From NCBI GenBank assembly GCA_951799425.1, contig OX637406.1:26220390-26284389 (forward strand): a stretch of DNA of 64,000 nucleotides. The letters are read 5' to 3'. Positions 16,826 through 64,000 of the stretch are shown here, in pieces. Within the stretch, counting starts at the first letter, position 1, and every line of letters begins with the position of its first letter. Origin of the DNA: Ilex aquifolium. Its lineage: Eukaryota > Streptophyta > Magnoliopsida > Aquifoliales > Aquifoliaceae. The notes beneath the pieces were generated by a model that saw nothing but the letters and a program-made list of their open reading frames with translations, searched no databases and was not told where the DNA came from. A program made the position numbers and the translations under genes.

Positions 16826-16927
16826 ATGTCCGAATGAAAATAGACATGCGTCCATATGCATTTGGCAGAAAGTTAGGCGAAAAGACACACGTTTGGATGC
16901 ACCAGGCAGAGGGTCGCACGTCCCTAA
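16826..16927 (+). repeat. Degenerate palindrome array in S1
   Basis: At the place where S3 and S4 carry perfect palindromes, S1 has tgtccgaat, gcgtccatatgc, cgtttggatg and cgcacgtccc. Each is explainable as a decayed CGTCC|GGACG site. Spacing is about 23, 41 and 28 bp. The assignment rests on position and partial match. Confidence 0.45.
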
Positions 16928-16958
16928 CCTGTTTTGGGTGTTCTCTCCAATTTTTACA

Positions 16959-16967
16959 TTATAAATA
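16959..16967 (+). promoter_or_regulatory. S1 TATA box
   Basis: TTATAAATA lies at the position equivalent to CTATAAATA in S3 and S4, just downstream of the degenerate palindromes. Confidence 0.7.
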
Positions 16968-17701
16968 CCTAGGGAATGACCCTTAGGCTTTGTTTCATCA
17001 GTTTTTCATCGTAAAAAAACCCTAGAGGGTGAGAAGAAAGGAGAGAAAGCAATACATGAAGGGATTTTTGCATAGAAGATGAATAGAACATGCTAGGGTT
17101 TGCATCACAAACTACGGAATAAAGGTGGAGGATTCTTCTTGAGTTCTTTCATTGAGACTTATGGTAATACCTATGCATGTTTTAAAACTTCTTGTCTATT
17201 ATATGTTAAATAAACATTTGTTCTTGATTTATTTTCGATTAACATGTGGTTTTCAACAAGATACATGTCTTGCATTCAAGAAACATCGTTCTTGAATTTC
17301 CAAAAACCCTAGTTTGCTAAATACATGTTCTAAATATGAAAAATACATGGATTCTTGATTTCTAAATTCACATTCTTGATTGAATTATGTTTTAATCAAT
17401 TACTTGTTCTTGTTCTAATAAATTGTAATTTTTGGAATGAACCCTAGAATTTTGATATCGCAATTATAAATGTTTTCTTGACATGATCTCTTGCATATTT
17501 TAATTCATTTATTATTTTATATTGAGAATGGTAGAATTGTGATACTTCATTTTGTATGGAAATCGTGATTGGTTGAGATCACGATTTTTGAGGAAGTTAT
17601 GCTTTTATCTTTGTACGGTTTGGGTGTGATAGACTTGGATTGCCTTCAAAAGATGCCATAGAGTGTTAGAGGTTAGTCTATCCCAGTGGGGGTGAGATGG
17701 T

Positions 17702-19532
17702 TGCTTGATTGTTTCCGTTGTATGCCCTATTCTCCGAACATGAACCCTCAATGTGTATATGGCTTATGTGTGGGTGAGTGTCACTCTCACTCGGGTTCAA
17801 TGCACGAGATGGGAAAACGGATGTGTGGAATGAAATGTGTGTGTGTGTGTGTGTGAACAAAAGTGCTCCCCAAGCGCAGAGATACTTTCGAGTGTCGTGT
17901 TTTACTTGGAATTAAGTATTCCAAGGTCGTCTCCTCAGGGAAGGAAGGTGATTTTGTGAAAATGGAAAAGTGTAAAAATCTTTGAAGTTTGAGTTTGGTT
18001 TGTGATTGTGTCTTGATGAAATTAAAATGGAAACAAGTGTTGGCTAATCCGAAGGGGTCATTCCAATTGGAATGCCAACTCAACTCAGGACTTTCCTCCA
18101 ATGGTGTCTAGATGTTTGATTGATTCGTAGGAAGCGGGAGACTAAAATGGAGGTGAGGATTCAAGCATACACTGTGACAAGTCTACGGTGTATCAAGAAC
18201 TCACAACCACGTCTACACTCAACCTAGTCAAACCGAATCAACGTACACTACGAGGAGGAATGAAAATGAGTTGAAATAGCATACCCAAGAGGAGTTCTCC
18301 CTTGGATTAGCCAACTTAAAGTTTAGCTACTCATGAATAATGGAAGGAAATGCATAATGTAAAGAGACATAATAAAGGAAAGAAGATTAGAACTTAACTT
18401 AATACAAGAAATCTTAAACTATGAAGAAAAATATTCAATACCCATTTTAAAAGCTTAGAATGAAGAAAGCTTAATACAACAATGGTGAAATCCAAAATGC
18501 ATAACTAAACTTGCAATACTCTTGAAATAAATGATATTAAGTGCAATAAAGGAAGCTTACAAGAGTCTTACAGAAGATTACAAGTGAAAATGGGTAAAAG
18601 AAATGCAAAAATCTAACTTATCTCTCTAAAACTACTCCTAAGCTTAGGTAGCCTTCTCCCTCTAGCTTGTGTGAAAAATGCTGAATATATGGTGTAGAGA
18701 GACTTCAAATTTCGTCCATGAGGCTCTCCATAGCCTATGTGCAGGCCTCCCATCAATGGGAGGTGAGTTGATTGGCTTGGCAGGCTAGGAGAAGCCTACC
18801 CAACAACCCCCTGGCTCCGCTCTTCTCTCCCATCCTCATAAATGCAATGGCCTCCAAAGTCCACCCCTAGGTGTGGGGAGGCATGTATGTGTGTAAGGGA
18901 TGTCAGGGACAAGTGGGAGAATCAATGGTGGGACCCCTAAGAAAGTGGAGCTTGAGTTGCAGGCTTTCTGGGAAAAACCTTCCGGAAGGTCGAAGTAAAC
19001 CTTCCGGAAGGTTGTTTCCAGTAGGCTAAACCTTTCGGAAGGTCTTCTGGAAGGTGCCAACTCAGGACCATTTTTCGTAAAATTGTCATAACTTTTGATC
19101 CAACCGCCCGATTGAGCTGAAATTTTGGCACAATACAGAGGATATCCAGATCTACAACTCTCATGTTTTGCATGTTTTCCGATTCGAAGTGTATCATGGT
19201 CAAACATGGGGAAAACAGAGGTACCAATTCCAGTGGGCTAAACCTTCCGGAAGGTCTATGCAAACCTTCCGGAAGGTTTTCTTCCCAATGCATTTTTTCT
19301 TGATTTCTTCACATTCTAAGCCTCCCAATCCTCATGTAATGTGTCCATATCTTCACTACTCATTCACACTTAGTTGCAGAGCTCCAAAAGCCATCATTTA
19401 CGCTATGATTACCTGCAACATAAAAATTTCCACATTATTCATAACTTTGACTAACTCTAAGTAATTAAATGCAAAGTTAAGTTAAAATGCATGTAATGAG
19501 GCCGTTAAATATGCAATATTACGCGCTCATCA
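17702..19532 (-). repeat. S2: type III solo LTR
   Basis: It runs TGCTTGATT...GCTCATCA and is flanked by the TSD ATGGT (17697-17701 and 19533-19537). The S1 sequence resumes in register after it. In element sense it begins TGATGAGCGCG, like S7 (TGATGAGTGCG) and E5 (TGATGAGCAC). No internal region is present, so it arose by LTR-LTR recombination. A GT microsatellite near 17838-17856 has a CA counterpart in the E6 LTR. Confidence 0.95.
18976..19280 (-). repeat. Palindrome array AACCTTCCGGAAGGTT in S2
   Basis: There are four perfect CTTCCGGAAG cores (18979, 19001, 19244, 19266), plus decayed copies ctttcggaag and cttctggaag near 19030-19052. Both perfect pairs are exactly 22 bp centre to centre. 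In element sense the array lies about 140 bp upstream of a TATA-like catttatgagg. Confidence 0.92.
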
Positions 19533-20389
19533 ATGGTTGCCTAACACTTATAGTTTGTTGTTTGTGAGAGCAACCACTATTGTTCACGTAAGTTTGAGGT
19601 TGACGGATGGTATACCTTTCTTGAGAAGGATTCGTCAATGCCGTGTGAGATGGTATACGCCATTTCTATTGTGGTTTCTGATGTGGCCCTGTAAGGAATT
19701 ATTGAGATTGTTTGTGGTTGTGATGGGTGAACGAAGTAGGAACGTTGTGTAGATTCCTAAGAAGCAACCGACATACATAAGATGCATGAGAAAATTGAGA
19801 TGTTGTTATTGAATTATTCATTGATTACTCTAATCTTTAAATGTTTATTCCTATTATTGAATTACTATATTCCGTACACTCGAGATCATTATTACTGTCA
19901 TTGTTTTACTTTTGGAAAAGTATATATGTTATTTTCTTAAAAGAGACTTGGCATCTTTATCATGTTTAAAAAACCTTGTATGGATTTTAGAGGGATTTCC
20001 TACGGGCTTTTGCTCATCCCCTATAACCACACATTTACAGATTTTGGCATAGAAGAGAATGTCGATGTGGATGAGCAGGTTGACTACGAGGCGGTGGAGA
20101 ATCAAGATGTGGACCCTATCTTAGAGGAATATAGTTTTTTTATTTTTGGTTTAGAGTTTGAGAGATTTCTATGAAATAATGTTTCCGCTAGTTTTAATTA
20201 TTCTACTACTAGATACTATTTGGTTTTGAATTGTAAGTTAGAGAAGTTACAATTTTTATTGACTGTAGTATTTATACTTTATCAGATGGATGAATGGTTG
20301 ATTGTTTTTAATGGTTATTTTTAGATGGTCTCATGATTGGATGGTTTATATATAGTAATGCCTTCCAGGGTAGATTTTGGGGCGTTATA

Positions 20390-20930
20390 GTTTTGGTATT
20401 AGAGCCAACTCTCTTGTAGTCGGTGGAGGGGGTGGACCCTACGTGGGCCTCTAAGGGGGTGGAGTGTAATAGCCTGGCAAAAGGCCTTGTGAGGTGAGGA
20501 GGTGCTATAGTTGTATGTGTTGCATCCCACATCGACTCGGGAGGGGGAGTGACTAGGCTATGTATGTGGTGTGCTCACCTTTAATTCTCAAGAGGCCTTT
20601 TATGAGGCAAAACCCTAGAGGAACTAAACCATGAGGGTGTATGGGCACCCAAAATGGACAATATCTTGACAATTGTGGCTAATCGTTACAAACAACCTTT
20701 AGTGCTCAAGAGGATTAGTTTTTGCTTGGTTTTGTTCTTCAAAAATTGGTAGAGACCAAGCTATGCTCACCAGCCTTAGCTAAAGCGGTCTCTTTATGAC
20801 TTAGGGAATTAGACGGGAAAAGGCCCTGGGGGAACAACATAGAGCTCGCTCGAGCGGGCCTTCATGGTCGCTTGAGTAGTGCACATGGTCGCAAGAGCGG
20901 TGCTACTCCTGGACAGGATGGAAACGTGAG
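20390..20930 (+). other. Backbone V, part 1: PBS-like site and TRIM/copia-like sequence
   Basis: TGGTATTAGAGCC (20394-20406) follows S1. About 45 bp later comes a purine tract (aagggggtggag) and then tgtaatagcc, which could be the start of another LTR. A 'tcccacatcgactcggg' motif near 20525, common in plant TRIM-like repeats, is present. No coding capacity is seen. The sequence continues at 29679 after E3, in register with the E3 TSD GTGAG. Confidence 0.55.
20845..20900 (+). repeat. Palindrome array CGCTCGAGCG in backbone V
   Basis: One perfect CGCTCGAGCG (20847-20856) and two decayed copies, cgcttgagta and cgcaagagcg (20890-20899), are 22 and 21 bp apart. With E3 and E4 removed, a TATA box follows about 130 bp downstream (51400). 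Confidence 0.75.
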
Positions 20931-21369
20931 TGATTCGCACTTTTTAGTGTGTCAGAATTATATTATTATATTACACCCAAGTATAAGTGGTCGAATTGTA
21001 GTTTTCTTGGTTTTTGAGTCCAAGTATCGATCCCACAGAGAGTTTTAGTAATTAAAATAAAATAAAATAAATAAAATAAAAATAAAGCAATAAAAAGGTT
21101 GTTTGGAGTAGTTTGATGTTTAATTGCTTGTGGTGTGAGCTTAGTCTAATGACGGTGCTAAAAACTTGATTCTAAAATAACAGGTGGAATAAAGGTGCAG
21201 AAATAAAATGCATACGTAAAACAAATGAATGACAGAAATATAAAAGATATCCTTCAGTTCAAGGATCCCACATGCTTTACATTGGTCTTGTTACGGAATT
21301 GCTACCTTACATCAGTTAACTTCCATTTTACTGGCAAGCTAACCGGCAGGTCTGATGTATATATATATT

Positions 21370-22080
21370 ATAACACAGCTGCTTCTTAGGCTACACTGGT
21401 TATATTTATGTCAAATGATTAACCCAAGCAAACCAGAAGGACAAGCCATTCATGAGGAATACTTGAGTTATTCACTTGATCTCATGATTGCAAATACGTA
21501 TATATATAATAAACCATAACACAGCTGCTTCTTAGGCTACACCGGTGGTAATATATAGCACAGTTGCTTCTTAGGCTACACTGGGCTTAGATGTTCCAAT
21601 TGATTAATTCAAGTAAAATCCGCAGGTGGTACAGACTATCTTCCGGTGACTTGTCAGGTCAACCGGTGGTAGTTAATCATAATACAGCTGCTTCTTAGGC
21701 TACACTGTATTTAGATATATCACCCAGCAAGTGAAGTTACTCGAACGACATACTTGAATTATTCAATAGGTTATCTTGTAATATATATATATATATATAT
21801 AGACAGTAGAACTTCCTCAGCGTTCCAGTGTAGGACTAGCCATACTGACAGGATCACCGGGGTTATTCTAGCAGGCAATATTATTATATATATAGTAATA
21901 CCAGGCGTCAGTGGAACTTCCTCAGCATTTCGGTGGAAACGCCGGGGTCATTCTAGCTGGCCCGTCTTATATATATATAATACTATCAGGCGTCAGTGGA
22001 ACTTCCTCAGCATTCCAGTGGAGGATTAACCATACCGGTAGGAACGCCGGGGTCATTCTAGCTGGCCCGTCTTGTATATA
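21370..22080 (-). repeat. Leader repeats in the E3 LTR (also at 28150-28860)
   Basis: A unit close to 'gctgcttcttaggctacac' occurs four times (about 21378, 21525, 21563, 21688). A second unit of about 85-100 bp beginning 'gaacttcctcagc' occurs three times (about 21808, 21915, 21998). Both lie downstream of the TATA box in element sense, so they should be in the transcript. The 5' LTR copy is the same. Confidence 0.85.
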
Positions 22081-22590
22081 TAATAAACGTATAAATAAAA
22101 CATCAGCAATTCCAAAAACAGATCAATATTATACATGTGTTCCCCTCGAACCGGAGGATATACGGAACTACTCACGCTCCATTGCTATAGACAAGCAAGG
22201 AGAGCTAGCAGTTGTCATTACAACAGAAAGGAAAGTGCGGAATTTAAATGTCTTTCGCAGGGAACGATTGAAACACAACCACTCTTATAATCGGTTAAGA
22301 TGAAAAAGTGGCGGCAGTTCAATTATTCGAATTGAAAGCTATACAAAAACTATAAAGGTACAGGACTTAGGACTGAAGTATAACACGGACCGGAGTGTAT
22401 TTTATCTTCTCTTTTCTTTCTCTCTTTTTCTCTCTTCAGAACTTCAGAACTTCAGAATCTCTCTCAGATCTCTCTGTTTCTCTCTTCTTTTCTGCCTCAG
22501 TCCGGCCGTGTATGAAAGCTGAAGAGTGTCCCTATTTATAGGCGTGGGAAGGCAAGTGGGAGAAGAGATGAGGCTGAGTCTGACAAGGGT

Positions 22591-22627
22591 GACCGTCCGG
22601 ACGGCAGTCCCACCGTCCGGACGGTGG
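22591..22627 (-). repeat. Palindrome pair ACCGTCCGGACGGT in E3 3' LTR
   Basis: There are two perfect CCGTCCGGACGG copies 20 bp centre to centre, about 50-85 bp upstream of the TATA box in element sense. Confidence 0.93.
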
Positions 22628-22895
22628 TGCTTTGCTGGAAACGGCCACTTGCATGCATGCTGAGTCTTCACGTTGGTTAATTACACTTTGGCCTTCATTC
22701 TTTACATTTCCTTGACATTGCTCCCTTGGTCTTGCGTTATTTCGGCATTTGTCCTGCAACTTTCAGATAAAATGTTATACCTAATATCATTCCCGCACAA
22801 ACCCTAATTCACTCTAAGTACTAATTTTTAGTGCATTTATTATACTAATTTAAATTTTTTGATTTTTTAATTTATACATAATTTAGGTTTAATCA

Positions 22896-22912
22896 CACCC
22901 CCTAACTTAAAC
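22896..22912 (-). promoter_or_regulatory. E3 polypurine tract
   Basis: The minus strand reads GTTTAAGTTAGGGGGTG directly against the 3' LTR. E5 has the similar CTTAAGTTGGGGGGTG. Confidence 0.8.
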
Positions 22913-27550: not shown

Positions 27551-27687
27551 AGACTAAAAATAACAAACTATAAACATATATAACAAACAAACAAATAATT
27601 TTTTTTTTTTTTTTTTTATAAATATTATTTTAATTATAATTTTATATTTTATATTTTATTTTATTTTATTTTTCAATTACCTTAACT

Positions 27688-27704
27688 CCCCGGCAACGGC
27701 GCCA
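27688..27704 (-). promoter_or_regulatory. E3 primer-binding site (tRNA-Asp)
   Basis: The plus strand reads ccccggcaacggcgcca, the 3' end of plant tRNA-Asp(GUC) as I know it, so the minus strand is its complement TGGCGCCGTTGCCGGGG. It lies six bases inside the 5' LTR. Confidence 0.93.
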
Positions 27705-29310: not shown

Positions 29311-29319
29311 TATTTATAG
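29311..29319 (-). promoter_or_regulatory. E3 TATA box
   Basis: The minus strand reads CTATAAATA. It is followed by CT/GA-rich leader sequence and preceded at 50-85 bp by two perfect palindromes. Confidence 0.8.
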
Positions 29320-29368
29320 GCGTGGGAAGGCAAGTGGGAGAAGAGATGAGGCTGAGTCTGACAAGGGT

Positions 29369-29404
29369 GACCGTCCGGACGGCAGTCCCACCGTCCGGAC
29401 GGTG
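29369..29404 (-). repeat. Palindrome pair ACCGTCCGGACGGT in E3 5' LTR
   Basis: Two perfect CCGTCCGGACGG copies, 20 bp centre to centre, identical to those in the other LTR. Confidence 0.93.
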
Positions 29405-29678
29405 GTGCTTTGCTGGAAACGGCCACTTGCATGCATGCTGAGTCTTCACGTTGGTTAATTACACTTTGGCCTTCATTCTTTACATTTCCTTGACATTGCT
29501 CCCTTGGTCTTGCGTTATTTCGGCATTTGTCCTGCAACTTTCAGATAAAATGTTATACCTAATATCATTCCCGCACAAACCCTAATTCACTCTAAGTACT
29601 AATTTTTAGTGCATTTATTATACTAATTTAAATTTTTTGATTTTTTAATTTATACATAATTTAGGTTTAATCAGTGAG

Positions 29679-31995: not shown

Positions 31996-32173
31996 CGTTC
32001 GAACGTGAATAGACGTTCGAACGATAGTTCGTCACAGTACTTTTTTGTCTGATAGAAATCTAATGAAATGTAAAAGTAATGGGAGCAATTAACGTTCGAA
32101 CGCCTTAATGACGTTCGAGTGTGAAGCAGTAAATTGCATTACTAACGTTCGAATGCCAAATGACGTTCGAACG
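31996..32173 (+). repeat. Palindrome array AACGTTCGAACG in S3
   Basis: There are four perfect CGTTCGAACG copies and two decayed ones (cgttcgagtg, cgttcgaatg), arranged as three pairs with 18, 19 and 18 bp between centres. The array ends 53 bp before the TATA box. Confidence 0.94.
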
Positions 32174-32225
32174 TGAGTTACGAATTCTGGGTTTCAGATT
32201 CGCGCACAGGGGACTGTTTCTCCTC

Positions 32226-33181: not shown

Positions 33182-34076
33182 TGTGGGTGAAATGGTTTAT
33201 TGTTGGAAATGGTTTAATGTTGGAATGGTTTATTGTATGGGAATTGATTTTATTTCTTCATTTAATTTATTGATATTGCTTAAACTTGAGATAGAATGAA
33301 CTTTCACTGTTTTCTTTCAAAAGTTATATATGATATTTGTAAAATGAGACCGACTTGTTTTATTGTTTTAAAAACCTTTTTCGAGCTTGGGAGGATTTTC
33401 CTACAGAGCTTAGTGCTCACCCCCTACAAACAATATTTATTTTCAAATTTCGGTTTACAGGAAGAACTCGGAGTTGATGAGCAGGTAGCTTGGGAAACTC
33501 AATTGGATGGAAGCATGGATCCCGAGGGGGATGTCTAGAGTTGTTCTCTTTATGTCTTAGACTAGGAGATGCATTTTGAGACAATGTATCGATGATATTT
33601 TGTTTATTCCGCTGCAAGATAAAGTTTGATTTTTTTGATGTAATTGTCATAGTTTGACATATTTTTTTTGAATGTAATGACCATGGTTTGACATATTCTT
33701 TTGGATGATGCTATAGATATTACGTATGATGAATGAAATTTACTTTATTTATGAATTTTATTAGTTGCTCTCATGATGTGAATGGTTTTAGATAGTAATG
33801 CCGTCAAAGGTGGATTTTGGGGCGTTACATGGACGGGTTCTCACTTGGGCCCTCGTTAATGAAGAAAGCTGAGTTGTGGCTTTAGATTACATTTTTGTAA
33901 AATAATCGTGTAATTGGTTTTGGATATGTCATATTGTTTAAAGGGTTGTGTAATGAACCCTTATGGATTATATTTTGTGTATAATTTGATGTTATATGAG
34001 TTTGGGTGAATGTTTTATGAGATTGGATGAGTTAAAATGAAAAAAAAGTATTGAATTGGGGGAAAACTGGGCCTTG

Positions 34077-34240
34077 CTCCTGGTAGCACGTTGATTAGCT
34101 ACCGGTAGCATAATTTTAGAGGGCTCAGTTACCGGTAGCAAGTACCTGAGCTATCGGTAGCTCACTGGCAGTGGAAAGCTAATGGTAGTTCTGGCAGAGG
34201 GCTCAGCTACCGGTAGCATGTACACGAGCTACCAGTAGCT
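34077..34240 (+). repeat. Palindrome array GCTACCGGTAGC in E4 5' LTR
   Basis: At least two perfect CTACCGGTAG cores (near 34099 and 34207) are present, plus decayed copies (ctcctggtag, ttaccggtag, ctatcggtag, ctaatggtag, ctaccagtag). Several are 22 bp apart. The array ends 70 bp before the mutated TATA equivalent at 34310. Confidence 0.9.
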
Positions 34241-35465: not shown

Positions 35466-35580
35466 CACCGTCCGGACGCTCCAAGCACCGTCTTAACGGT
35501 ACTCCTTACCCAAAAACTTTATTTTTCATAAAAAACGGTGACTTTGAACCGTCCGGACGCCCAAGGACTGTTCGGACGCT
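35466..35580 (+). repeat. Palindrome array CCGTCCGGACG in S4
   Basis: Two perfect CGTCCGGACG copies each sit beside a decayed partner (cgtcttaacg 20 bp away; tgttcggacg 19 bp away). A half copy (aacggtgac) lies between. The array ends 51 bp before the TATA box. Confidence 0.92.
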
Positions 35581-41685: not shown

Positions 41686-43590
41686 TGATTGATGAAAAAC
41701 GTTGTTATTCCTAACCCCTAAACATCACCATTTGACATGTGTATATGACTTATGTGTGAAAGGGAGTGTCACTCTCCCTCGGGGTGATGCAAGAGATTAG
41801 GCAACAACGGATTGGTGGAAAATGGAATGAACAAAATGTGAAATGAAATACGGGTGTGTGAACAAAAGTGCTCCCCAATCGCAAAGAGTCTTTTGTGTGT
41901 CGGTGTTTTACTTGGAAAAGTATTCCAAGGTCGTCTCCTCAGGGAAGGAAAGTTCAAGTTGTGTGAAGGTGATTTTGCAAAAGGTAAAGAAAGTGAAAAA
42001 TCTTTTGTTTGAGTTTTTTGGTTGTGTTTGTGAATGGAAATGCAAGAAAAACAAGTGTTGGTTAATCCGAAGAGGTCATTCCAATGGGAATACCAAATCA
42101 ACTCAAGCCTTCCCCTAATGGTGCATAGATGAACGATTGATTCGTGGGAAGCTCGGGACTAAAGGGAGGTGAGGATCCAAGCATAACCCGTGACAATGCC
42201 TACGAGATATCAAAGACTCACAACCACGTCCTCACCCCAACCCAGTCAAACCGAACCATCGTACACCGAGAGGAGGAAAGAAAATGAGTTGAAATGACAC
42301 ACCCAAGAGGAGGTCTCCCTTGGATTAACCAACTAAAAATCTAGCTACTCATACTTGAAGGAAGGCATACAATATGTAAAGGGACATGTAAAAGAAATAA
42401 AGCACGAAACTTAAAGGAATGAAAGAAAACTTAAACTAAGAAGAAAAATATTCAATACCCATTTTAAAACTAAGAAATGAAGAAAGCTTAACACAACAAT
42501 GGTGAAATGAAGAACATGTAATTAAACTTGCAATATTCTTGAAATAAAAGAGATTACAATGCAGGAAATAAAGATTACAAGGGAACTACAACTTACTGCA
42601 ATGAAATGGGAGAAGAAAATGCAAAAACATGAATTTTATCTCTATAGCACTATTCATCTTCTTCTTCATTGAGCCAAGACTACTCCTAAGCTTAGGTAGC
42701 CACCCTCAATACAATGTGTAAAATGCTGAATATCATGGAGAGTTAGCCTTCAATTTTGGTGCATGGTGGTCTCCCCTAGCTGTGTGCAGGCCTCCCATCA
42801 ATGGGAGGCTGAATGATGGCTCTTGACAGGCTAAGGAAGAGCTAGCCTGCAACTCACTGAGCAGCCCCCTTCTCTCCCATCCTCCTTTAATGCCAAGTCT
42901 TAAAATTCTTCAAAATGTGTAAGAGAGGCATGGAGATGTGCAAGGAAATGTTGGGGGCAATGTGGGAGAATCATTGGTGGGACCCCCAAGCAAGTGGAGA
43001 AGAGTTTGCAGGTGTTCTGGGCTGTTCTGGGAGCGTACTGGTACTGTGTACCGGTACTCTAAACCTTCTGGAGTTCGAAGTACCGGTACGCAGTACCGGA
43101 ACGGTATAGTACCGGTACTGTGTACCGGTACTGTTTTCTGCTCCGGACCACTTTTCGTAGAATCGGCATAACTTTTGATCCAACCGTTGGATTGAGCTGA
43201 AATTTCGGCACAATACAGAAAACATCCAGATCTACAACTTTCATGTTTTGAACTTTTTCAGATTCGAAGTAAATCATGGTCAAAATGGAGGAAAACCGAG
43301 GATCTTTAACCCAGTGGTGTGGCTGCTGGCGCCTTTGTTACCAAACACCAATACCTCCTTGATTTCTTCACTTTTAAGCCTCCAAATCTTCATGTAATGT
43401 GTCCATGCCCTCACCACACATCCAACATAGTTGCAAGGTCCTAAAATACATGATTTAAGCTATAAAAACATGCAACATCGAGAATTCAACATTATTCATA
43501 AAATCGGCTAACTCTAAGTACTTAGATGCAAAAGTTGAGTTAAAATGCATGTAATGAGGCCTTGAAATATACAATATTTTGTGCTCATCA
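41686..43590 (-). repeat. E5 3' LTR (type III)
   Basis: Direct repeat of 46751-48655. The frames inside it (for example 41769-42118) recur in the other LTR and are not genes. Confidence 0.96.
43035..43132 (-). repeat. Palindrome array GTACCGGTAC in E5 3' LTR
   Basis: Three tight pairs have 13 bp between centres: gtactggtac-tgt-gtaccggtac, gtaccggtac-gca-gtaccggaac and gtaccggtac-tgt-gtaccggtac. Between pairs lies 'aaaccttctggagttcg', a decayed CTTCC-type site. Confidence 0.93.
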
Positions 43591-46747: not shown

Positions 46748-46750
46748 AAA

Positions 46751-48655
46751 TGATTGATGAAAAACGTTGTTATTCCTAACCCCTAAACATCACCATTTGA
46801 CATGTGTATATGGCTTATGTGTGAAAGGGAGTGTCACTCTCCCTCGGGGTGATGCAAGAGATTAGGCAACAACGGATTGGTGGAAAATGGAATGAACAAA
46901 ATGTGAAATGAAATGCGGGTGTGTGAACAAAAGTGCTCCCCAATCGCAAAGAGTCTTTTGTGTGTCGGTGTTTTACTTGGAAAAGTATTCCAAGGTCGTC
47001 TCCTCAGGGAAGGAAAGTTCAAGTTGTGTGAAGGTGATTTTGCAAAAGGTAAAGAAAGTGAAAAATCTTTTGTTTGAGTTTTTTGGTTGTGTTTGTGAAT
47101 GGAAATGCAAGAAAAACAAGTGTTGGTTAATCCGAAGAGGTCATTCCAATGGGAATACCAAATCAACTCAAGCCTTCCCCTAATGGTGCATAGATGAACG
47201 ATTGATTCGTGGGAAGCTCGGGACTAAAGGGAGGTGAGGATCCAAGCATAACCCGTGACAATGCCTACGAGATATCAAAGACTCACAACCACGTCCTCAC
47301 CCCAACCCAGTCAAACCGAACCATCGTACACCGAGAGGAGGAAAGAAAATGAGTTGAAATGACACACCCAAGAGGAGGTCTCCCTTGGATTAACCAACTA
47401 AAAATCAAGCTACTCATACTTGAAGGAAGACATACAATATTTAAAGGGACATGTAAAAGAAATAAAGCACGAAACTTAAAGGAATGAAAGAAAACTTAAA
47501 CTAAGAAGAAAAATATTCAATACCCATTTTAAAACTAAGAAATGAAGAAAGCTTAACACAACAATGGTGAAATGAAGAACATGTAATTAAACTTGCAATA
47601 TTCTTGAAATAAAAGAGATTACAATGCAGGAAATAAAGATTACAAGGGAACTACAACTTACTGCAATGAAATGGGAGAAGAAAATGCAAAAACATGAATT
47701 TTATCTCTATAGCACTATTCATCTTCTTCTTCATTGAGCCAAGACTACTCCTAAGCTTAGGTAGCCACCCTCAATACAATGTGTAAAATGCTGAATATCA
47801 TGGAGAGTTAGCCTTCAATTTTGGTGCATGGTGGTCTCCCCTAGCTGTGTGCAGGCCTCCCATCAATGGGAGGCTGAATGATGGCTCTTGACAGGCTAAG
47901 GAAGAGCTAGCCTGCAACTCACTGAGTAGCCCCCTTCTCTCCCATCCTCCTTTAATGCCAAGCCTTAAAATTCTTCAAAATGTGTAAGAGAGGCATGGAG
48001 ATGTGCAAGGAAATGTTGGGGGCAATGTGGGAGAATCATTGGTGGGACCCCCAAGCAAGTGGAGAAGAGTTTGCAGGTGTTCTGGGCTGTTCTGGGAGCG
48101 TATTGGTACTGTGTACCGGTACTCTAAACCTTCTGGAGTTCGAAGTACCGGTACGCAGTACCGGAACGGTATAGTACCAGTACTGTGTACCGGTACTGTT
48201 TTCTGCTCCGGACCACTTTTCGTAGAATCGGCATAACTTTTGATCCAACCGTTGGATTGAGCTGAAATTTTGACATAATACAGAAAACATCCAGATCTAC
48301 AACTTTCATGTTTTGAACTTTTTCAGATTCGAAGTGGATCATGGTCAAAATAGAGGAAAACCGAGGATCTTCAACCCAGTGGTGTGGCTGCTGGCGCCTT
48401 TGTTACCAAACACCAATACCTCCTTGATTTCTTCACTTTTAAGCCTCCAAATCTTCATGTAATGTGTCCATTCCCTCACCAAACATCCAACATAGTTTCA
48501 AGGTCCTAAAATACATGATTTAAGCTATAAAAACATGCAACATCGAGAATTCAACATTATTCATAAAATCGGCTAACTCTAAGTACTTAGATGCAAAAGT
48601 TGAGTTAAAATGCATGTAATGAGACCTTGAAATATACAATTTTTTGTGCTCATCA
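46751..48655 (-). repeat. E5 5' LTR (type III)
   Basis: Partner of 41686-43590. A TATA-like gcattaaagga (minus strand, about 47948-47958) lies about 140 bp downstream of the palindrome array, where the other type III LTRs have gcatttatgagg. Confidence 0.96.
48100..48197 (-). repeat. Palindrome array GTACCGGTAC in E5 5' LTR
   Basis: The same three 13-bp-spaced pairs as at 43035-43132. Two sites differ from the sister LTR (gtattggtac and gtaccagtac), both by C-to-T or G-to-A. Confidence 0.92.
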
Positions 48656-48867: not shown

Positions 48868-48881
48868 TTAAGGGGGAAGAA
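48868..48881 (+). promoter_or_regulatory. E4 polypurine tract
   Basis: TTAAGGGGGAAGAA immediately before the 3' LTR (TGTAAAACCC). Confidence 0.9.
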
Positions 48882-50956: not shown

Positions 50957-51077
50957 TGCTACCGGTAGCACAATTCCAAAGGGCTCAGCTATCGGTAACA
51001 AGTACCCGAGCTATCGGTAGCTCGCTGGCAGTGGGCAGCTATTGGTAGTTCTGGTTGAGGGCTCAGCTACCGGTAGC
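50957..51077 (+). repeat. Palindrome array GCTACCGGTAGC in E4 3' LTR
   Basis: Perfect CTACCGGTAG cores at 50959 and 51067 flank decayed ctatcggtaa, ctatcggtag and ctattggtag. Centre spacing is about 30, 22, 28 and 28 bp. Confidence 0.92.
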
Positions 51078-51149
51078 TCCTCCAAAATTTTTAAAAATTT
51101 AAAATAACTTTGTCAAACCTTCGGGCCTTGAGTCATTTTGTTCAAAGGA

Positions 51150-51158
51150 TATAAATAG
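51150..51158 (+). promoter_or_regulatory. E4 3' LTR TATA box
   Basis: TATAAATAG in the context ggatataaatagag, 73 bp after the array and 240 bp before the LTR end. S6 has acataaatg at the equivalent place (62320-62328). Confidence 0.65.
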
Positions 51159-51399
51159 AGTAATATTAAGGGCAAATTGATGTATATTGGACCTTGAGAT
51201 GGTCAAGTGATTGAAATGTATATAGGTTATGCGTTTGGGAGTGCCCAGTACAAGGGAGATTCTACCCAAACTCTGTGTTGGTTACGATTCTGGTGAAGGG
51301 GATGTTATGACGTGGTGTCGGGTTATGAGGCATTCACGAGTACTTCCACGGGTTGATGGATGATCAACGAGTTGACAAACCGGTTTTAGGGGTGTCACA

Positions 51400-52190: not shown

Positions 52191-52465
52191 ATCGTGAGGG
52201 ATGATCCACATCGGGTTCCCCTCCCGGAACAACAGAAATCATCCTAAAAAATATTAAAAGCGGGGAACTATATAATACGACAGGAAACAATATATTCAAC
52301 GATAAAAATACGAATGATAAAATACCAAATAATTTAACCGATAGACAATCATGAACATCAGAATCAAGAAACAAATTTGACATGCCATATAACTCAATTG
52401 CTATCAAACATAGTCTCATACTCGGTTTATCTTGGTGATTAGCACAAAACATTGCATATATTGTA
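52191..52465. other. Unassigned sequence before E6
   Basis: I see no recognised element. The 90-residue minus frame here has no domain I know. Confidence 0.5.
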
Positions 52466-54175
52466 TGATGTTATGCCCCTTTTATACTTGGTTTTGTTGT
52501 GATTTTGGGGAGAAATGCGTTTAATCTTGTCGGTGATGGAGTTTTGTGTAAATGTAGGTGAAAGGATGCAAATGGCTTGAGTTAAGTCCCCATTGAAGTG
52601 TTAGAAGTCAATGAACATGATGGGATAGCTTAAAGGAAGACTTGGAGGGTGAAAAAACCAAGAAAAATGCAGTTTAGGTGAAAACCTTCCGGAAGGTTTT
52701 TAGCCAAACCTTCTGGAAGGTTTTGCCTTGGTCTGCCTATTCACTGCCAAAACCTTTCGGAAGGTTTTTTCTATTGGAATGAACCTTCTGGAAGGTTTGA
52801 AAAACCTTCCGGAAGGTTTTGCTTACTGGTTTGCCATTTTAACTGTTCCTGCACAAACCTTCCGGAAGGTTTTGCCCAGATTGCCCAGACAGCCTTCAAC
52901 TCAAGCTCTGCCATTTGGGGGTCCCACCTACACTTCTCCCACTTATCCCCTGACATCCCTTACATATCTATAGGCCTCCCATCACCCATGCTTGGACTTT
53001 GAAGGCTTGGGCATTTATGAGGAGGAGAGAGAAGAGGAAGAGCTGGGAGATGCAGGCTAGGCCTGTCCTAGCCTGCCCAAGGCATCCAATCAGCCCCCTT
53101 TTGATGGAAGACCTGTCACACACCTATGGAGCTCTCTATGGATGAAAATGTATCATTCATTATGTATTATTCAGTTTGTATTGCATTGTAGAGAGAGAAG
53201 CTCTAGGTAGAAGACATAGTTAGAGAGAGAAAGCTTAGATTTCTTGCATTTCTTCCATCCATTTCACTTGTAATCCTCTGTAAGACTTGTGTAAGCTTCA
53301 TTTAATGCCTTTAATGTCATTTATTACAAGCACATTGCAAGTTTAGTTCTCTATTTTGGTTTTCACCATTGTTGTAGGTAGTTTTTTTCATTTCAAGTTT
53401 TAAAATGGGTATTGAATGTTCTTATTCCTAGTTTAAGTTTCCTTGCATTAAACTAAGTTCCAATCTTCATTTCTTTACAATGTCTCTTTATTACATTTAT
53501 GTTCTTGCTTTGATTATGAGTAGCTAAACTTTAAGTTGGTTAATCCAAGGGAGAACTCCTCTTGGGTATGCTATTTCAACTCATTTTCATTCCTCCTCGT
53601 AGTGTACGTTGATTCGGTTTGACTGGGTTGAGTGTGGACATGGTTGTGAGTCTTTGATATCCCGTAGACTTGTCACAGGGTATGCTTGGATCCTCACCTC
53701 CATTCTAGTCCCTCACTTCCCACGAATCAATCGAACATCTAGACACCATTGGGGGAAGGTCTCGAGTTGAGTTGGTATTCCCATTGGAATGACCCCTTCG
53801 GATTAGCCAACACTTGTTCCCATTTCAATTTCATCAAAACACAATCACAAACCAAAATCAAACATCAAAATATTTTTACACTTTTCTTTTTGTTCACCAA
53901 AATCACTTTCAATACGATTCACCTCATTGCCTGATGAGACGACATTGGAATACAATTTCCAAGTAAAACACGACACTCGAAAGTCTCCTTGCGCTTGGGG
54001 AGCACTATTGTTCACACACACACACACACACATTTCATCCATCCACCATTATGCCGTTTTCCCCCATTTCTTGCATCATTCTGAGGGAGAGTGACACTCC
54101 CCTATCCCTATAAGCCATACACACATTGAGGGATGATATTTGGAGATTAGGGAATACAATGGAAACCATCAAGCA
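52466..54175 (+). repeat. E6 5' LTR (type III)
   Basis: It starts TGATGTTATGCCCC and ends ACCATCAAGCA. Its 3' two thirds match S2 in reverse complement (ctccccaagcg, the CA microsatellite at 54013-54031, the 'ggaaaccatcaagca' end). The first 200 bp differ from S2, S5 and S7. A TATA-like catttatgagg lies at about 53010. Confidence 0.85.
52683..52870 (+). repeat. Palindrome array AACCTTCCGGAAGGTT in E6 LTR
   Basis: Three perfect CTTCCGGAAG cores and three one-base variants (cttctggaag twice, ctttcggaag). The spacer 'ctattggaatgaac' recurs in S6 as 'ccactggaatgaac'. Confidence 0.92.
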
Positions 54176-54179
54176 TTTT

Positions 54180-56279: not shown

Positions 56280-58240
56280 TGATGGCTTGATCCAATGTGT
56301 ATACACCCAAGTGCAGGCGGTCAAGCTGTAGTAATAATCCGGTTTGAGTCCGGAGTCGAATCCACAGGGAACTTTTGATGATATTTCTAAGGCAAGCAGT
56401 GGTAGAGACCTTTTGATTGTAACTTTTGAGATTTGCTGTAAGTTGTGAGTTTTCCTGGACAGAATATAAGATTCTTTCTAAGAGGATTTTCTTAACAAAA
56501 TATGGGATAGATGCTAATTAAAAAGAGTCACTCTTTAGTGCAAGGATCTGGACATGTAGTCAGTTATCCGGTTTGTCATAATTGTGCTTGATAACTCAAT
56601 TAACTCCCGTGTCAACAGCAAGTCAATCGGAAGATAAAGATGGATTGTGAGAATTAAGAACATGATTCCGATGTCTTTCTAGAAGTTTACAAGAATTGCC
56701 TGTGCCGAGACTTAACCCGTCTACAAACAAGCAAGTGTTTCTACAAGACATCCAATCATGCTATTAATATTCCATTCTTTCAATGAAGAACAATAAGGGG
56801 GAAGATTGAAGGGTAGTCATGAGGATCTAGCCGGGGTACTTGCCTTGAACTGATGAGTCTTTCTATGCAGGAGTCATCCATGTCATAGAAAGAGCTCACA
56901 GTTATACAAAGTACCTTAGCTTTGCTAGATGCAATCAATCATCCGATAACAAGAAGAAATAAACGTTAAGCATAAAAACATTGCACAAATATGATTCCCG
57001 GATAACTTATACATGCCCTTCTCCTCTTACTAAAGAGTGAATGAGAAACTACTCACTCTTCATGGCTTGGGTAAAGCTAGAAAAGTGAGTGATGCTCATT
57101 CCTCCAAGTGGAGAGCTTTAAAAGATAAAGTAACAACAAACGCGGAGCCAATCTTTAACAAAGAATGGGTGAATCACGTTCCACCCTTCACGGCTTTAAT
57201 AAAGCTCTAGAAAAGTGGAAGAGTTTCACTCTTCTAAGAAAGAAAGAAGCTCAAGCAATGAAAGTGAAATGCATGAACAATAAAAGTAGAAGAAAGCTAG
57301 TCACATTTGGAGGGTGGCTTCCTCAACCAAGAATTGGAGGGTTGCTTCCTCAACCAAAATGTGAGCTATCTCTCTTCTATGCATGAGAAATGAAAGCATA
57401 AACATAAGCATAAGCACAAAACTACTGTTATAACAAGCAAGAGATGTTGGACTAAAGCCAAACTAATCTCTAAAATAAAGACTTCATACAAGGAAAAATG
57501 AGTTCAATCTACAATGAGAGTGGGAGTCTAAGCCTCCATCAACTTTCCTACTTCCTACTATGGCTCTTCTAGCTCTCCAACAAGGGGAGTATTTATAGGC
57601 AAGAGGAGGAGACAAGGGGGGGTGAAAGAATAGTGTTTGCCGCCCAAGTCCAAGTGAATAGTCAACAACTCTGCTGCCAGTCTGTGGATAACGTTCGAAC
57701 GTGAGTTGGTGTTCGAACGTTATTTCTGTTTTTGTACTGAGGGTGTTCGAACGTTGACTGCCGTTCGAACGTTTCTTCTGTTTTTGAAATGAGGGCGTTC
57801 GAACGCCAGATCTGCTCTGACCCCTTTCACTCGAGTGATCTGTTGGTCTTCTGTGAAGTTCAGTTCCAACTCTCTGCAGTGGTCTGGTCTTCCATCAACT
57901 CAAATGCACGTTCGAACATGAGTTGGTGTTCGAACGTGACACTCAAGTACTTCAGAGCTCCAGTCTTTTTTCCTAACTGCAACACGTCTTCTCTTCAGCA
58001 GTTGAGTCTGCTACAGTGCAATATGGACGTTCGAACGTGAGTTGGCGTTCGAACGTTCTGGCTGTGCTCCAAGCTTCTCCAATTTTGGGCTCTAATGTAC
58101 TGGTGCTGCATCCAAGTGTGGTACTTGTTGTTCTTGGGTCCTTGTTCAGTTTAGGGCCTGAAATGACATCACTTAAACTCCATTAAAGTACAATTAGTCT
58201 TAAAATTTCATAATAATATGTCAACTTTAAGTACTAATCA
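56280..58240 (-). repeat. S5: type IV solo LTR between E6 gag and protease
   Basis: 1961 bp, TGATGGCTTG to GTACTAATCA, TSD GATGC at 56275-56279 and 58241-58245. The E6 reading frame rejoins exactly (LLDA then IKQIPSCAKILKD, as in E3). It resembles E3 LTRs at the ends (cacccaagt, gtttgagtccgg) but has a different palindrome. TATA box CTATAAATA on the minus strand at 57590-57598. Confidence 0.96.
57690..58057 (-). repeat. Palindrome array AACGTTCGAACGTT in S5
   Basis: Five perfect CGTTCGAACG cores and four one-base variants (tgttcgaacg three times, cgttcgaaca once). Four pairs have exactly 18 bp between centres, most with the spacer tgagttgg. The array lies about 92 bp upstream of the TATA box in element sense. 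Confidence 0.94.
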
Positions 58241-58245
58241 GATGC

Positions 58246-59398: not shown

Positions 59399-59868
59399 GT
59401 AGAATGAGCTTATTCCAACAAGGGTGATCACCGGATGGAGAGTGTGTATTGATTACCGAAAGCTCAACTTATGTACAAGAAAAGACCACTTCCCATTGCC
59501 ATTCCTCGACCAAGTGTTGGAAAGAGTAGCGGGGCATCTATGCTATTGCTTCTTAGATGGATACTCTAGCTACAATCAAATCGAGATTGCATTGGAAGAT
59601 CAAGAGAAGACCACCTTCACTTGTCCCTACGGTACTTTTGCCTACCGTCGCATGCCTTTCGGGCTGTACAATGCCCCTGGAACTTTTCAACGTTGTATGA
59701 TGGGGATTTTTAGTGACATGGTGGAGAAGATTGTGGAGGTGTTTATGAACGAATTCTCAGTGTTTGGGGATTCGTTTGATGGATGTTTGGAGAACTTAGA
59801 GAGAGTTCTGGAAAGATGTGAGGAGAAGAACTTGGTCCTGAATTGGGAAAAGTGTCACTTTATGGTGA

Positions 59869-62475
59869 TGTAAAACCCGAGAAAATTTCAACCTTTGTGA
59901 AAAAGGGCAAAACGGTAAATTGCCACTACAGTACAGGTTGTAAACCTGAATTTTTCTAGAACTCGGATGACGAAACGGACCTCACCGTTGGATTCGTCTC
60001 GCGAAATCTAGTTACCACGTCAAATTTCGTTGAATTCCGAGATAGTCGGATTTTTCGCGTTTTGCGAGACGAACGGGCCCGTGTGACCCCGTACACGAAA
60101 TTTTTTATAAAATTTCCAAGTTTGGGGAAATATTAGAGACAAGTGAAATAAAAATATTTTAAACTTAAATCGGGACGAAATTTAATCGTTTCGGGGTTAA
60201 AACGGACCCGGAAAAGAGAGGCCGTGTGGCGCGTTGTGGGCCAAGTGTTCCAAGGGTATATAAAGGGGGGAAAATCAGATTTTTCCCCCATTCTTCTTGC
60301 CGTTCAACCGATAGAAAAGAGGAGAGGGAGAGAGCTTGAAAATCTTCACTTCTCTCTACGATCTAGAAGGCTACGAAGCTCGGATCCATTCAATCCAAGA
60401 ATTAAAGTCGCTCTACTCATCGAGGGCTACGCGGCTATACCAAAAAGCACAAGTTTTACCGAAGGTCAAGGTACGGGATTTTCGGGAAGTGAGGGTTTTT
60501 GCCTGAATCGAGTCTTGGAACTTCCCTTGGTCGTTCCTCACGCTTCAAGAGGTAGGGTTTCTTCCTACTAAGGTTTATTCCAAGCCTGTAATGTTTTTAT
60601 GGAATGGGTAGGATGATAGCCTATGTGTCTCTTGCCTATTGTTGTGAAATTGGGTGAAATGGGGTATTGAAATGGGTAAAGGAAATCCTAACTTGGATGA
60701 ATATTTAGAAGTTACTAATTGTGATTTCTATGAATTGGATATGTGAAATGAACCCAATGCAAATTCATGTGTTATATGAAATTGTGGGCGTGTTATGTGT
60801 TTATATATATGCCATGAAATTTTAGTATGTTGATAACATGCTTGGAATTTGTATTATGGGAATTATATGCTTTTGATATGATTTTGCCATGGAATATGAG
60901 AAATGTGTTGAGAATGTTCATATGTCACTCATATCATATCGAACATTGTATTGGTGTTGCGATGGAGCACCACATTTCATATGCACGGGAACATCGCATT
61001 TTAGGAGGTGTGTGTGCATGGTTATTTGTCTTCACCACACATGGTGGATGACGAGTGAGCTCGGGTAATATGGGTCGATGACCTAGACGAGTCGAATGGT
61101 TTATATGTTGATAGGGTTGGGGTAGCAAGAAGGGCTAGAAAATCCCTCGGGTGAGAGACCCGGTGATTGGATACGCACTCCGTTGGTATAAGAGCCCATA
61201 AAGTGTGTCGGTGTACGCGGAACCGTTGGTGGAAGTCCATGAATTCCGTGTAGGTTGGGTGACCTTTGGTGTGAGTCCATGAACATCCACCTCTACAAAG
61301 ACCCTAGAATGAGATGTCATTTGATGTGAAACATAAATGACGGATTGGTACACATTGGCACTTGCATGTGTAGAGGAGCCGGGAAGGGCTCGGTTGATGT
61401 GCATGAGTGAGTCTCACCTCATTTCATAGCATGGCATTACATGTTTCAACATGGAATATATTCTTGTTGTGGATTGTTGATTGATAGCATGTGACATTTC
61501 ATATGCATTTAGGTTGGGGAGTAGCCTCTCTAGGAGATACCCTATTGAGCGTGGCTCACCCTTTATGGGAAAAACATTTCAGGTGTGGGTTTTGCTCCGG
61601 TGGATGGCTCATTTGGAGAGCATCAAGCATGAAGGGGGCCGGTTTGTGGCCTTAGTTTAAGTTTTGTAAAACCTTTAACAAAATTCCATTTTGATGTATA
61701 TATATTATGGAATGAATTGTAATAGAGATTGTATGAGTTGGGTATTATATGGAAAATCTCATTAAACATGTATTGAATGAGTTTGGAGTGTATGGGGTAG
61801 CTTTAAGGATGGTTTGGAGGGGAAAGAAATCCATTTTTATGCTCACAGTCTGAAAACCTACCGGAAGGTGTGTGTCGGCCTTCCGGAAGGTTTTGCTAAA
61901 AACCCCAGCTTGCCTTGCTCACAGCTAATACCTTCCGGAAGGTTTTGCCCACTGGAATGAACCTTCCGAAAGATTTTAGCTACTGGAGTAAAACCTACCG
62001 GAAGGACTTGTCTACTGGAGTGGACCTTCCGGAAGGTTTTGCCTTGGGTTTCTTTTTGACTGCCGAGTTCTTCCGGAAGGTTTTGTTTTCTGGAATGAAC
62101 CTTCCGGAAGGTTTTGGCTACTGGAATGGACCTTCCGGAAGGTTTTTGCTACTGATGTCGACCTTCCGGAAGTTCTTGAAATTGATCTTTTTCATGTAAC
62201 AGTTCCTTCAGCTACCTTCCGGTAGGTGTATGTCGACCTTCCGGAAGGTTTTTCCAAAAACTTGAAATTTTCAAAATGATTAGCCATGCTTTTGGGCTTT
62301 GTTTTCTTTGGTTTCTATGACATAAATGGAGGTATAATTGACCTTGTGGATGGTAAATCCGATTAAAAGCATGTGAGTGACGTGGTGTCGGGTTATACGA
62401 CTATCACGAGTATTTCCGCGGGTTGACGGATGGTCAACGGTTAATAAAGGACCCCCGGAAATTTGGGGCGTCTCA
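59869..62475 (+). repeat. S6: long type I solo LTR in E6 RT
   Basis: 2607 bp, TGTAAAACCCGAG to GGGGCGTCTCA, TSD GGTGA at 59864-59868 and 62476-62480. It is full-length homologous to the E4 LTRs but carries a different palindrome. A TATA-like tatataaagg lies at 60257 and another, acataaatg, at 62320. Confidence 0.97.
61856..62250 (+). repeat. Palindrome array ACCTTCCGGAAGGT in S6, with hybrid sites
   Basis: This is the largest array here, about 13 sites. Perfect CTTCCGGAAG cores dominate. Three sites are hybrids of the CTACC and CTTCC half-sites: ctaccggaag near 61858 and 61994, and cttccggtag near 62214. Spacings of about 22 and 31 bp recur. Spacers repeat 'ctactggaatgg' and 'cactggaatgaac'. 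Confidence 0.93.
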
Positions 62476-62657
62476 GGTGACGCAAGGAATTTTGCTAGGG
62501 CACATCATCTCGGCGAAGGGGATCGAAGTTGACAAATCAAAGGTGGATGCAATTTCCAACCTCCCTACGCCAAAGGTCATCAAGGATATCAGGTCGTTTC
62601 TTGACCATGTTGGTTTTTATCGTCGTTTTATTAAAGAATTTAGTGCATTGGCCCAAC

Positions 62658-64000
62658 TGATGAGTGCGTAATATTGCATATTTAACGGCCTCATTACATG
62701 CATTTTAACTCCACTTTTCATTTAAGTACTTAGAGTTAGCCGAATTTATGAATAATGTTGAAATTTTGATGTTGCAGGTAATTATAGTGTAAATGATGGA
62801 TTTTAGAATCTTGCAACTAAGTGTAGATGAGTGGTGAAGACATGGACACATTACATGAGGATTTGGAGGCTTAAAAGTGAAAGAAATCAAGGAGGTATTG
62901 GTGTTTGGTAACATAGGCACCGGCACCCGCACCATTTGGTATCAGTACCTCGATTTTTCTCATTTTTGACCATGATCCTCTTATAATCTGAAAAGGTTTA
63001 AAACATGAAAGTTTTAGATCTAGATGTCCTCTATAATTTGTAAAAATTTTAGCTCAATCGGACGGTTGGATCAAAAGTTATGACAAATTTACGAAAACTG
63101 GTCCTGAGCTAGCATCTCATTTACGACCTACCAGTAGAAGGAAACAAAACCTACCGGTAGGTTTTGCCTACTGGACAAAAACCTACCGGTAGGTTTCCCG
63201 CGACCTACCGGTAGGTTTTGCCCAGAAGTGTCAAAATGCCTGCAACTCAAGCTCCACTTGCTTAGGGGTCCCACCATTGATTCTCCCACTTGTCCTTGAC
63301 ATCCCTTACACACATACATGCCTCCCCACACCTAGGGGTGAACTTTGGAGGCCATTGCATTTATGAGGATGGGAGAGAAGAGGGGAGCCAGGGGTTGTTG
63401 GGTAGGCTTATCCTAGCCTGCCAAGCCAATCAACTCACCTCCCATTGATGGGAGGCCTGCACACAGGCTATGGGGAGCCTTATGGACGAAAATACATCAT
63501 CTATACACCATATATTCAGCATTCACACAAGCTTTGAAAGGGAATAGGCTACCTAAGCTTAGCAGTAGTTTTTAGAGAGATAAGTTCCAATGAAGAAGAT
63601 GAAGTTTTAGAGAGAGAAATTTATGTTTTTGTATTTTCTTCTCCATTCCAGTTGTAGAAAGCTTTAAATCTCTTGTAATCCTTAATTGTTGCACTTTAAT
63701 CTCATGTATTTCAAGTGTATTGCAAGTTTAGTTACATGTTCTAGATTCTACCATGTTTACATTGAGTTTTTCATTTCAAGCTTTTTTTCAGTTGGGTATT
63801 AAATGCACTTATTTTCCTTGTTTCACGTCTCTTCCTTTCAATACAAGTTTAACTCCCTTTTCAATATCAGGTCTCTTTATATTATGCATGTCTTTCCTTT
63901 TATTATGAGTAGCTAGATTTTTAGTTGGCTAATCCAAGGGAGAATTCCTCTTAGGTGTGCTAAATCAACTCTTTTTCTTTCCTCCTTGTAGTGTACATTG
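62658..64000 (+). repeat. S7: type III LTR, start only, inserted in E6 RT
   Basis: It begins TGATGAGTGCGTAATATTGC, the reverse complement of the S2 end, and is cut by the window edge. It may be solo or part of a full element. TATA-like gcatttatgagg at about 63355. Confidence 0.9.
63126..63216 (+). repeat. Palindrome array ACCTACCGGTAGGT in S7
   Basis: Three perfect CTACCGGTAG cores and one decayed ctaccagtag. Centre spacings are 32 and 22 bp between the perfect sites. It lies about 140 bp upstream of the TATA-like motif. Confidence 0.93.

Follow-up and report, generated by a model that had tools for sequence, protein, structure and literature searches.

Sireviruses, retrotransposons of the Ty1/copia type, carry multi-copy palindromes known as RM boxes in their long terminal repeats (LTRs), upstream of the TATA box and at 8 to 32 per element (PMC2829016). 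According to that study, the boxes lie mostly in CpG islands, a regulatory role was proposed for them but left untested there (Bousios et al. 2010, PMC2829016), and they were called specific to Sireviruses and absent from classic copia elements, in a comparison that covered Ty1/copia elements. A 2016 study of maize copia elements, as cited in excerpts of PMC10760457 and PMC5311732, found the palindromic LTR region to be fast-evolving and to attract small RNAs. Here we describe arrays of CG-centred perfect palindromes in LTRs that we assign to Ty3/gypsy retrotransposons, within one 64-kb locus of one plant genome, that of holly (Ilex aquifolium; assembly GCA_951799425.1, contig OX637406.1, positions 26,220,390 to 26,284,389; this whole stretch is called the window below). 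The cis-regions of other transposable element families are also said to hold arrays of repeats, sometimes palindromic.

A script search for perfect palindromes with a CG centre and a length of 10 bp or more found 50 in the window; in 100 dinucleotide-preserving shuffles the average was 6.64 and the highest count 15. Neighbours no more than 130 bp apart make up 30 pairs (shuffle mean 0.05, maximum 2), and 47 of the 50 palindromes fall inside LTRs, with 3 in the 32,868 bp outside them. Clusters are present in 13 of the 18 LTR copies as against 8 of 3,600 within-LTR shuffles, which bears out the central claim of a preliminary description of this DNA, that its LTRs carry such clusters; as three of the carriers are LTR pairs (the A pair, D and V, introduced below), the 13 copies amount to 10 insertions. 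Five main cores, CTTCCGGAAG (15 copies), CGTTCGAACG (9), CTACCGGTAG (8), GTACCGGTAC (7) and CGTCCGGACG (6), are accompanied by five others found once each. What stays the same throughout the main cores is their YCGR centre, either CCGG or TCGA, and none of the 50 is ACGT- or GCGC-centred. A further core named in the preliminary description, CGCTCGAGCG, proved to be a single palindrome at 20847 that lies beyond the LTRs and belongs to no cluster. GC-centred palindromes are slightly in excess (21; shuffle mean 10.8, maximum 17), and counts of AT- and TA-centred ones are inflated by (AT)n tracts. No CG-centred palindrome of this kind was found in the LTR pair of element E1 (5618/11070) or in the repeat pair 3-639/12123-12757, and the C16 LTR holds decayed sites only, with three core mismatches each.

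The likeness to RM boxes (PMC2829016) lies in short, multi-copy, CG-containing palindromes of family-specific sequence that cluster upstream of TATA, and the earlier statement that no described system matched does not hold. In the table of 13 motifs given there, Vitis CGGTCGACCG and Tnd-1 ACAATCGATTGT are moreover even-length and TCGA-centred, like CGTTCGAACG here, which narrows the difference between the two kinds of array. What sets this locus apart is that the carriers are apparently Ty3/gypsy and not Ty1/copia, that the CGG-CCG signature of 12 of the 13 tabled RM motifs (all except Tnd-1) is in none of the cores here, and that here cores, and once an array with its spacers, are common to different lineages, while homologous LTRs switch core in place. 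This sharing across lineages and this core switching look new, while the arrays themselves have their precedent in Sireviruses. No account of such arrays in Ty3 LTRs was found in the openly licensed literature, taken in excerpts: PMC6911290 there deals with palindromes at insertion sites, not promoters, the repeat papers on Retand, einkorn and Silene (PMC11963269, PMC11302176, PMC3212565) have in their excerpts nothing on LTR promoter palindromes, and a term search of a plant LTR motif paper (PMC11656987) returned neither palindromes nor Athila.

Insertions were defined through self-comparison of the window and 5-bp target-site duplications (TSDs), and lineages through primer sites and domain matches or, for the F and C solo LTRs, LTR ends. 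Four elements are delimited in this way: E1 (5618-11492), D (20931-29673, TSD GTGAG), the A pair element (41686-48655, TSD GCGAG) and the backbone element V (29788-51399, TSD TATAA). A17, F, B3, C31 and C35 are solo LTRs, A52 and A62 have one end cut or uncertain, and for C16 the limits are uncertain and the TSD is doubtful. For A17 the 5-bp TSD was preferred because of the TG...CA ends, over a higher-scoring 8-bp match that gives a shorter LTR; C31 does not start with TG and C35 does not end in CA. Coding pieces of the A, D, V and E1 types yielded the Ty3/gypsy domains Retrotrans_gag, Ty3_capsid, RVP_2, SH3_Tf2-1 and RVT_1, and the first four of these, together with primer sites of the tRNA-Asp type (A, D, A52) or iMet-like type (V, E1, C16), point to Ty3/gypsy rather than Sirevirus (Ty1/copia) membership. 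The tRNA-Asp-type primer-binding site TGGCGCCGTTGCCGGGGA stands at 46747 (A pair) and 27704 (D) and, with one mismatch, after 54176 in A52; we take this primer type to be an Athila marker. The five LTR types of the preliminary description stand as LTR sequences (A, B, C, D and F) but come down to only two Ty3 lineages, an Athila type and a chromovirus type, to which we assign the array carriers. Within this scheme F, a solo LTR without coding sequence, is weakly placed in the Athila type from its LTR ends alone, and the C solo LTRs are weakly placed in the chromovirus type from their LTR ends and the C16 primer site. The E1 integrase stays under the cut-off for the Chromo profile (E 0.046), and the PF00385 chromodomain occurs in 10 of the 120 listed relatives of that integrase.

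Four of the five main cores are found in LTRs assigned to both lineages: CTTCCGGAAG in Athila-type A17 and A52 as well as chromovirus-type B3, CTACCGGTAG in A62 as well as V, CGTCCGGACG in both D and C35, and CGTTCGAACG in both F and C31, the first two cases being based on primer sites or on homology to elements with them and the last two on the weaker C and F placements. The fifth core, GTACCGGTAC, is confined to the A pair. Three different cores occur among the A LTRs, which can be aligned with one another around the array or, in the case of A52, just downstream of it. With sites counted throughout at up to two core mismatches, the solo LTR A17 (17702-19532, minus strand) has CTTCCGGAAG in an array at 18977..19279, four of six sites perfect and centre spacings of 22, 200, 12, 31 and 22 bp, and A62 (plus strand, 62658 to past the window end) has CTACCGGTAG at 63126..63216, three of four sites perfect. 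The A pair, on the minus strand, has GTACCGGTAC at 43035..43131 in its 3' LTR (41686-43590; four of six perfect, one site hybrid) and at 48100..48196 in its 5' LTR (46751-48655; three of six perfect). A52 (plus strand, start uncertain, end near 54176) returns to CTTCCGGAAG at 52681..52872, with three of six sites perfect.

How one core may give way to another is best seen between the closely related LTRs A17 and A62. Outside the palindromes their alignment shows 21 differences in 246 positions, but within them 9 in 44. T/A exchanges that keep the dyad and interchange CTTCCGGAAG and CTACCGGTAG make up seven of these nine, as against four T/A changes in the 246 positions outside (Fisher p 2.4e-4). 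The A62 CTACCGGTAG sites are in register with four CTTCCGGAAG sites of A17, whose two further upstream sites have no counterpart in A62. At three of these four homologous sites both mirror changes are aligned; at the fourth the CG is gone in both LTRs and one half is aligned, the site windows ACCTTCCAGAAG and ACCTACCAGTAG showing both mirror changes. Since the spacers align through the core change, the array was not simply replaced. Three hybrid sites in B3, with one half of each type, look as would be expected of intermediates, and the A pair array has an apparent CTTCCGGAAG-type relic (judged by eye).

Exchange of a whole array between lineages was assessed by masking the palindromes and comparing what remained in 18 LTR pairs, each against 300 single-letter shuffles. 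B3 and A52 scored 22 (shuffle mean 8.3, maximum 13, reached in 0/300), that is, the A52 spacers match those of B3, while B3 scored 9 against V5 and V3 of its own family, a value reached in 41/300 and 48/300 shuffles. Weaker signals came from A17-B3 (4/300), A62-B3 (2/300), C35-C31 (1/300) and C31-F (score 14, 0/300), and A17, A52 and A62 match one another, as expected of homologs. Homology of the masked arrays was unsupported for C31-B3 (218/300), D-B3 (45/300) and F-B3 (39/300). B3 itself is a plus-strand solo LTR (59869-62475, TSD GGTGA) with CTTCCGGAAG at 61855..62249, and it bears the largest array: against the earlier count of up to about 13 perfect palindromes, it has 12 sites between 61.8 and 62.3 kb, eight of them perfect. 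F follows with nine sites, and the other 11 arrays have two to seven (per LTR). As a separate observation, positions 52450-52680 of the A52 LTR, upstream of its array, are unalignable to the other A LTRs, which suggests either that its U3 is chimeric or that the start of the LTR has been misjudged.

The remaining arrays help to place the palindromes relative to the promoter. Both D LTRs (minus strand) carry the same CGTCCGGACG pair with a spacing of 20 bp, at 22593..22627 in the 3' LTR (20931-22895) and 29371..29405 in the 5' LTR (27711-29673). The solo LTR F (56280-58240, TSD GATGC; minus strand, as its ends suggest) has CGTTCGAACG at 57691..58055, five of nine sites perfect and with spacings that include 18 and 34 bp, and C31 (31658-33829, TSD TGGAC, plus strand) has the same core at 31996..32174, four of six perfect and spaced by 18, 79, 19, 34 and 18 bp. 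C35 (34953-37244, TSD GAAAT, plus strand) holds CGTCCGGACG at 35469..35580, two of three perfect. The B-type 5' LTR of V (V5, 29788-34567, plus strand), which is split by C31, has CTACCGGTAG at 34076..34239 (two of seven perfect; spacings 22 and 28-30 bp), as has the 3' LTR (V3, 48881-51399, plus strand) at 50957..51078 (two of five perfect), and the decayed sites of C16 (about 16314-20390, plus strand, split by A17) lie at 16820..16910. Beyond the final palindrome of the array there is a TATAWAW motif at a distance of 59 bp in D, 100 in F, 78 in C35, 59 in C31 and 79 in V3, the last value being read from the table because the script had taken an isolated downstream palindrome as the last. Arrays of the A, C, D and F types stand some 10-30% of the way along the LTR, those of V and B3 some 77-91%; with their position varying by type, the shared reference point wherever a TATA box is visible is the promoter rather than the end of the LTR. 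The TATAWAW motif supports the description of the design as promoter-proximal in the LTRs that have it; the others are taken up below. The ratio of observed to expected CpG is higher in the array than in the whole LTR for A, D, F, C35 and C31 and not for V and B3, a comparison in which the sites are CG-centred by selection.

Taken together, we consider the arrays to be probably U3 enhancer or operator arrays for dimeric host DNA-binding factors. They would lie just 5' of the LTR transcription start and act as duplex DNA, each palindrome being bound by a homodimer of a host protein, with neighbouring dimers binding cooperatively through preferred spacings. Different cores would correspond to different factors or paralogs, an LTR would acquire a new core through substitutions matched between the two half-sites of its copies, and at least one array would have been exchanged between LTRs of the two lineages. 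Each copy is a dyad in its own right, the YCGR centre of the main cores is constant and both halves change together, which makes a protein dimer on duplex DNA the best explanation; that the same cores recur in different elements speaks for host factors rather than element-encoded ones. That a protein binds, that it does so cooperatively, that it activates and does not repress, and that it comes from the host are all points that we infer from the letters of this locus. The shared module for a homodimeric factor that had been put forward earlier thus survives as the best reading, and the RNA hairpins offered beside it are less favoured.

According to that RNA explanation, which we think unlikely, the arrays would act mainly in U3 transcripts, where palindrome copies pair and the hairpins lead to small-RNA silencing or serve the RNA life cycle of the element. 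The predicted RNA folds of all ten array stretches (10/10) are indeed more stable than those of shuffles (z -2.3 to -10.3), with 0/200 shuffles matching them in nine of ten arrays and 5/200 in C35, and Sirevirus palindromes are small-RNA hotspots according to excerpts of PMC10760457 and PMC5311732. Palindromes fold strongly whatever their function, however, so that the fold test does not discriminate, and the targeting by small RNAs may be a by-product. A hairpin between copies needs only reverse complementarity, yet most copies are individually palindromic; the constant YCGR centre would be the loop if a palindrome folded alone, and the B3 hybrid sites spoil perfect pairing between copies. 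These points favour a primary function as dyads in duplex DNA rather than as hairpins in RNA.

Spacing bears both on the dimer-bound arrays and on a second alternative. With the second LTR of each pair left out and 2,000 trials of random placement, CGTTCGAACG sites (C31 and F) had 7 of 13 adjacent gaps at 18-19 bp and three more at 34 bp (p 0.0005), and CTTCCGGAAG and CTACCGGTAG sites (A17, A52, B3, A62, V5) had gaps of 21-23 bp in 10 of 30 cases and of 30-32 bp in 10 others (p 0.0015). Alternatively, the arrays could be a neutral by-product of tandem duplication and slippage from one chance palindrome per LTR, an origin we regard as slightly less likely even than the RNA one. There is tandem similarity inside B3 and F, and inter-site sums of about 52-53 bp recur. 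Duplication copies bases, though, and does not create symmetry; separate LTR types have ended up with arrays on the promoter side, with YCGR centres and with the same small set of cores, and the four sites in register between A17 and A62 have all changed in mirrored fashion. Least probable by some distance is that the palindromes bind an element-encoded protein (anti-silencing or regulatory) with which the cores coevolve: a self-encoded partner could explain core switches between related LTRs, but the same cores are found in the LTRs of more than one lineage as well as in solo LTRs, and, as a weak further point against it, Pfam scanning of 14 of the 29 open reading frames of at least 130 amino acids in the window left three without a match and gave standard retrotransposon parts (gag, zinc knuckle, protease, reverse transcriptase or integrase) for the other 11, with 15 frames and the shorter pieces outside the scan.

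Several known factors were compared with the cores as putative dimeric binders. The heat-shock element, which we take to be TTCnnGAA, fits only CTTCCGGAAG, and the idea was dropped; LOB-domain proteins, with what we assume is a preference for TCCGGA, were also considered. The tobacco Ty1/copia element Tto1 reportedly has a 13-bp LTR promoter motif bound by NtMYB2 (reference titles in PMC4108030). This motif, said to contain GGTAGGT, is reportedly non-palindromic, in few copies and limited to a single copia family. For LOB-domain binding the literature, including excerpts of PMC12258188, gave nothing usable. For R2R3-MYB proteins of subfamily VIII, excerpts of PMC11995187 give the consensus AMCWAMY and name IR0 among the AtMYB2 dimer modes, and the CTACCGGTAG-type site ACCTACC|GGTAGGT is a zero-spaced inverted repeat of that consensus; the sections on dimer modes differ from our case in making no link to retrotransposons. 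Among perfect CTACCGGTAG palindromes the half-site ACCTACC fits AMCWAMY in 6 of 14, and the other eight (AGCTACC, TGCTACC) fit in their inner five bases only. An R2R3-MYB is a candidate binder for the CTACCGGTAG core only, and since the other four cores do not fit, we treat it as a lead and not as a claim.

That misfit, of the CTTCCGGAAG, CGTCCGGACG, GTACCGGTAC and CGTTCGAACG half-sites with the MYB consensus, is one of a number of results that weigh against arrays bound by dimeric host factors. The spacings of CGTCCGGACG (19, 20 and 81 bp; p 0.156) and of GTACCGGTAC (13, 13, 13, 16 and 32 bp; p 0.514) are not beyond chance, and tandem duplication within arrays makes gaps non-independent, so that both low spacing p values given above are optimistic. 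No TATAWAW was found within 300 bp past the array in the A LTRs, V5 or B3, to which the claim of a promoter-proximal position did not extend. Masked-array homology was unsupported for D-C35 (292/300 shuffles) and A41-B3 (272/300), as it was for the A-V5 pairs (A52-V5 251/300, A17-V5 172/300, A62-V5 273/300); exchange of an array between lineages is well supported for one LTR pair only, B3-A52. Element E1, finally, has 425-bp LTRs that match the first 380 bp or so and the last 30 bp or so of the 2.6-kb B3 LTR, and its chromovirus-type internal region is 82% identical to that of V. Both E1 LTRs share this array-less form, and E1 has therefore probably transposed without an array, which would mean that the array is not indispensable.

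A wider proposal is possible but doubtful, namely that the arrays form an exchangeable promoter cassette that circulates among unrelated Ty3 retrotransposons and whose specificity is switched in place, both half-sites together, so as to track a diversified family of host factors, in an arms race or a choice of niche. If the pattern held genome-wide, abundant plant retrotransposon promoters could be read by core type, and one could ask which host factor serves each family, whether families compete for a factor or share it, and how they change partner. The mirrored swaps would then be a record of partner change at the sequence level, and the idea of palindromic arrays would be extended from Sireviruses to the Ty3 lineages present here.

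The sites also record decay. Across 13 arrays with 74 sites (both LTRs of pairs counted, C16 excluded), 44 sites are perfect, and 29 of the 37 mismatches are C>T or G>A, 20 of these 29 in the central four bases; this is the kind of pattern expected of methylated cytosines decaying after silencing.

Relatives beyond the plant were sought in contig collections. Scans of viral contigs for palindrome pairs gave 7 and 19 loci, none of which matched the window by blastn at E 1e-3; three scans of viral contigs guided by protein sequence likewise turned up no relative, and a palindrome-pair scan of bacterial and archaeal contigs gave 7 loci that were set aside by their titles alone. Ten of the 26 viral-contig pairs span 31 bases, so that their centres are 21 bp apart, as they would be for two dimers separated by two helical turns.

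Some further features of the window were observed. A perfect palindrome, CCTAAGCTTAGG, lies downstream of the array in three A LTRs (18637, 42685, 47750). The repeat 3-639/12123-12757 is adjoined by a 68-bp perfect (AT)n palindrome at 627-694. Within the D LTRs, at 21782-22086 and 28561-28864, (TA)n tracts accompany a tandem repeat of roughly 120 bp. Among the best 120 of 492 relatives of the D gag protein, the named sources are eudicots except for one bacterial label, Pseudomonas protegens in the public source, which is probably plant contamination.

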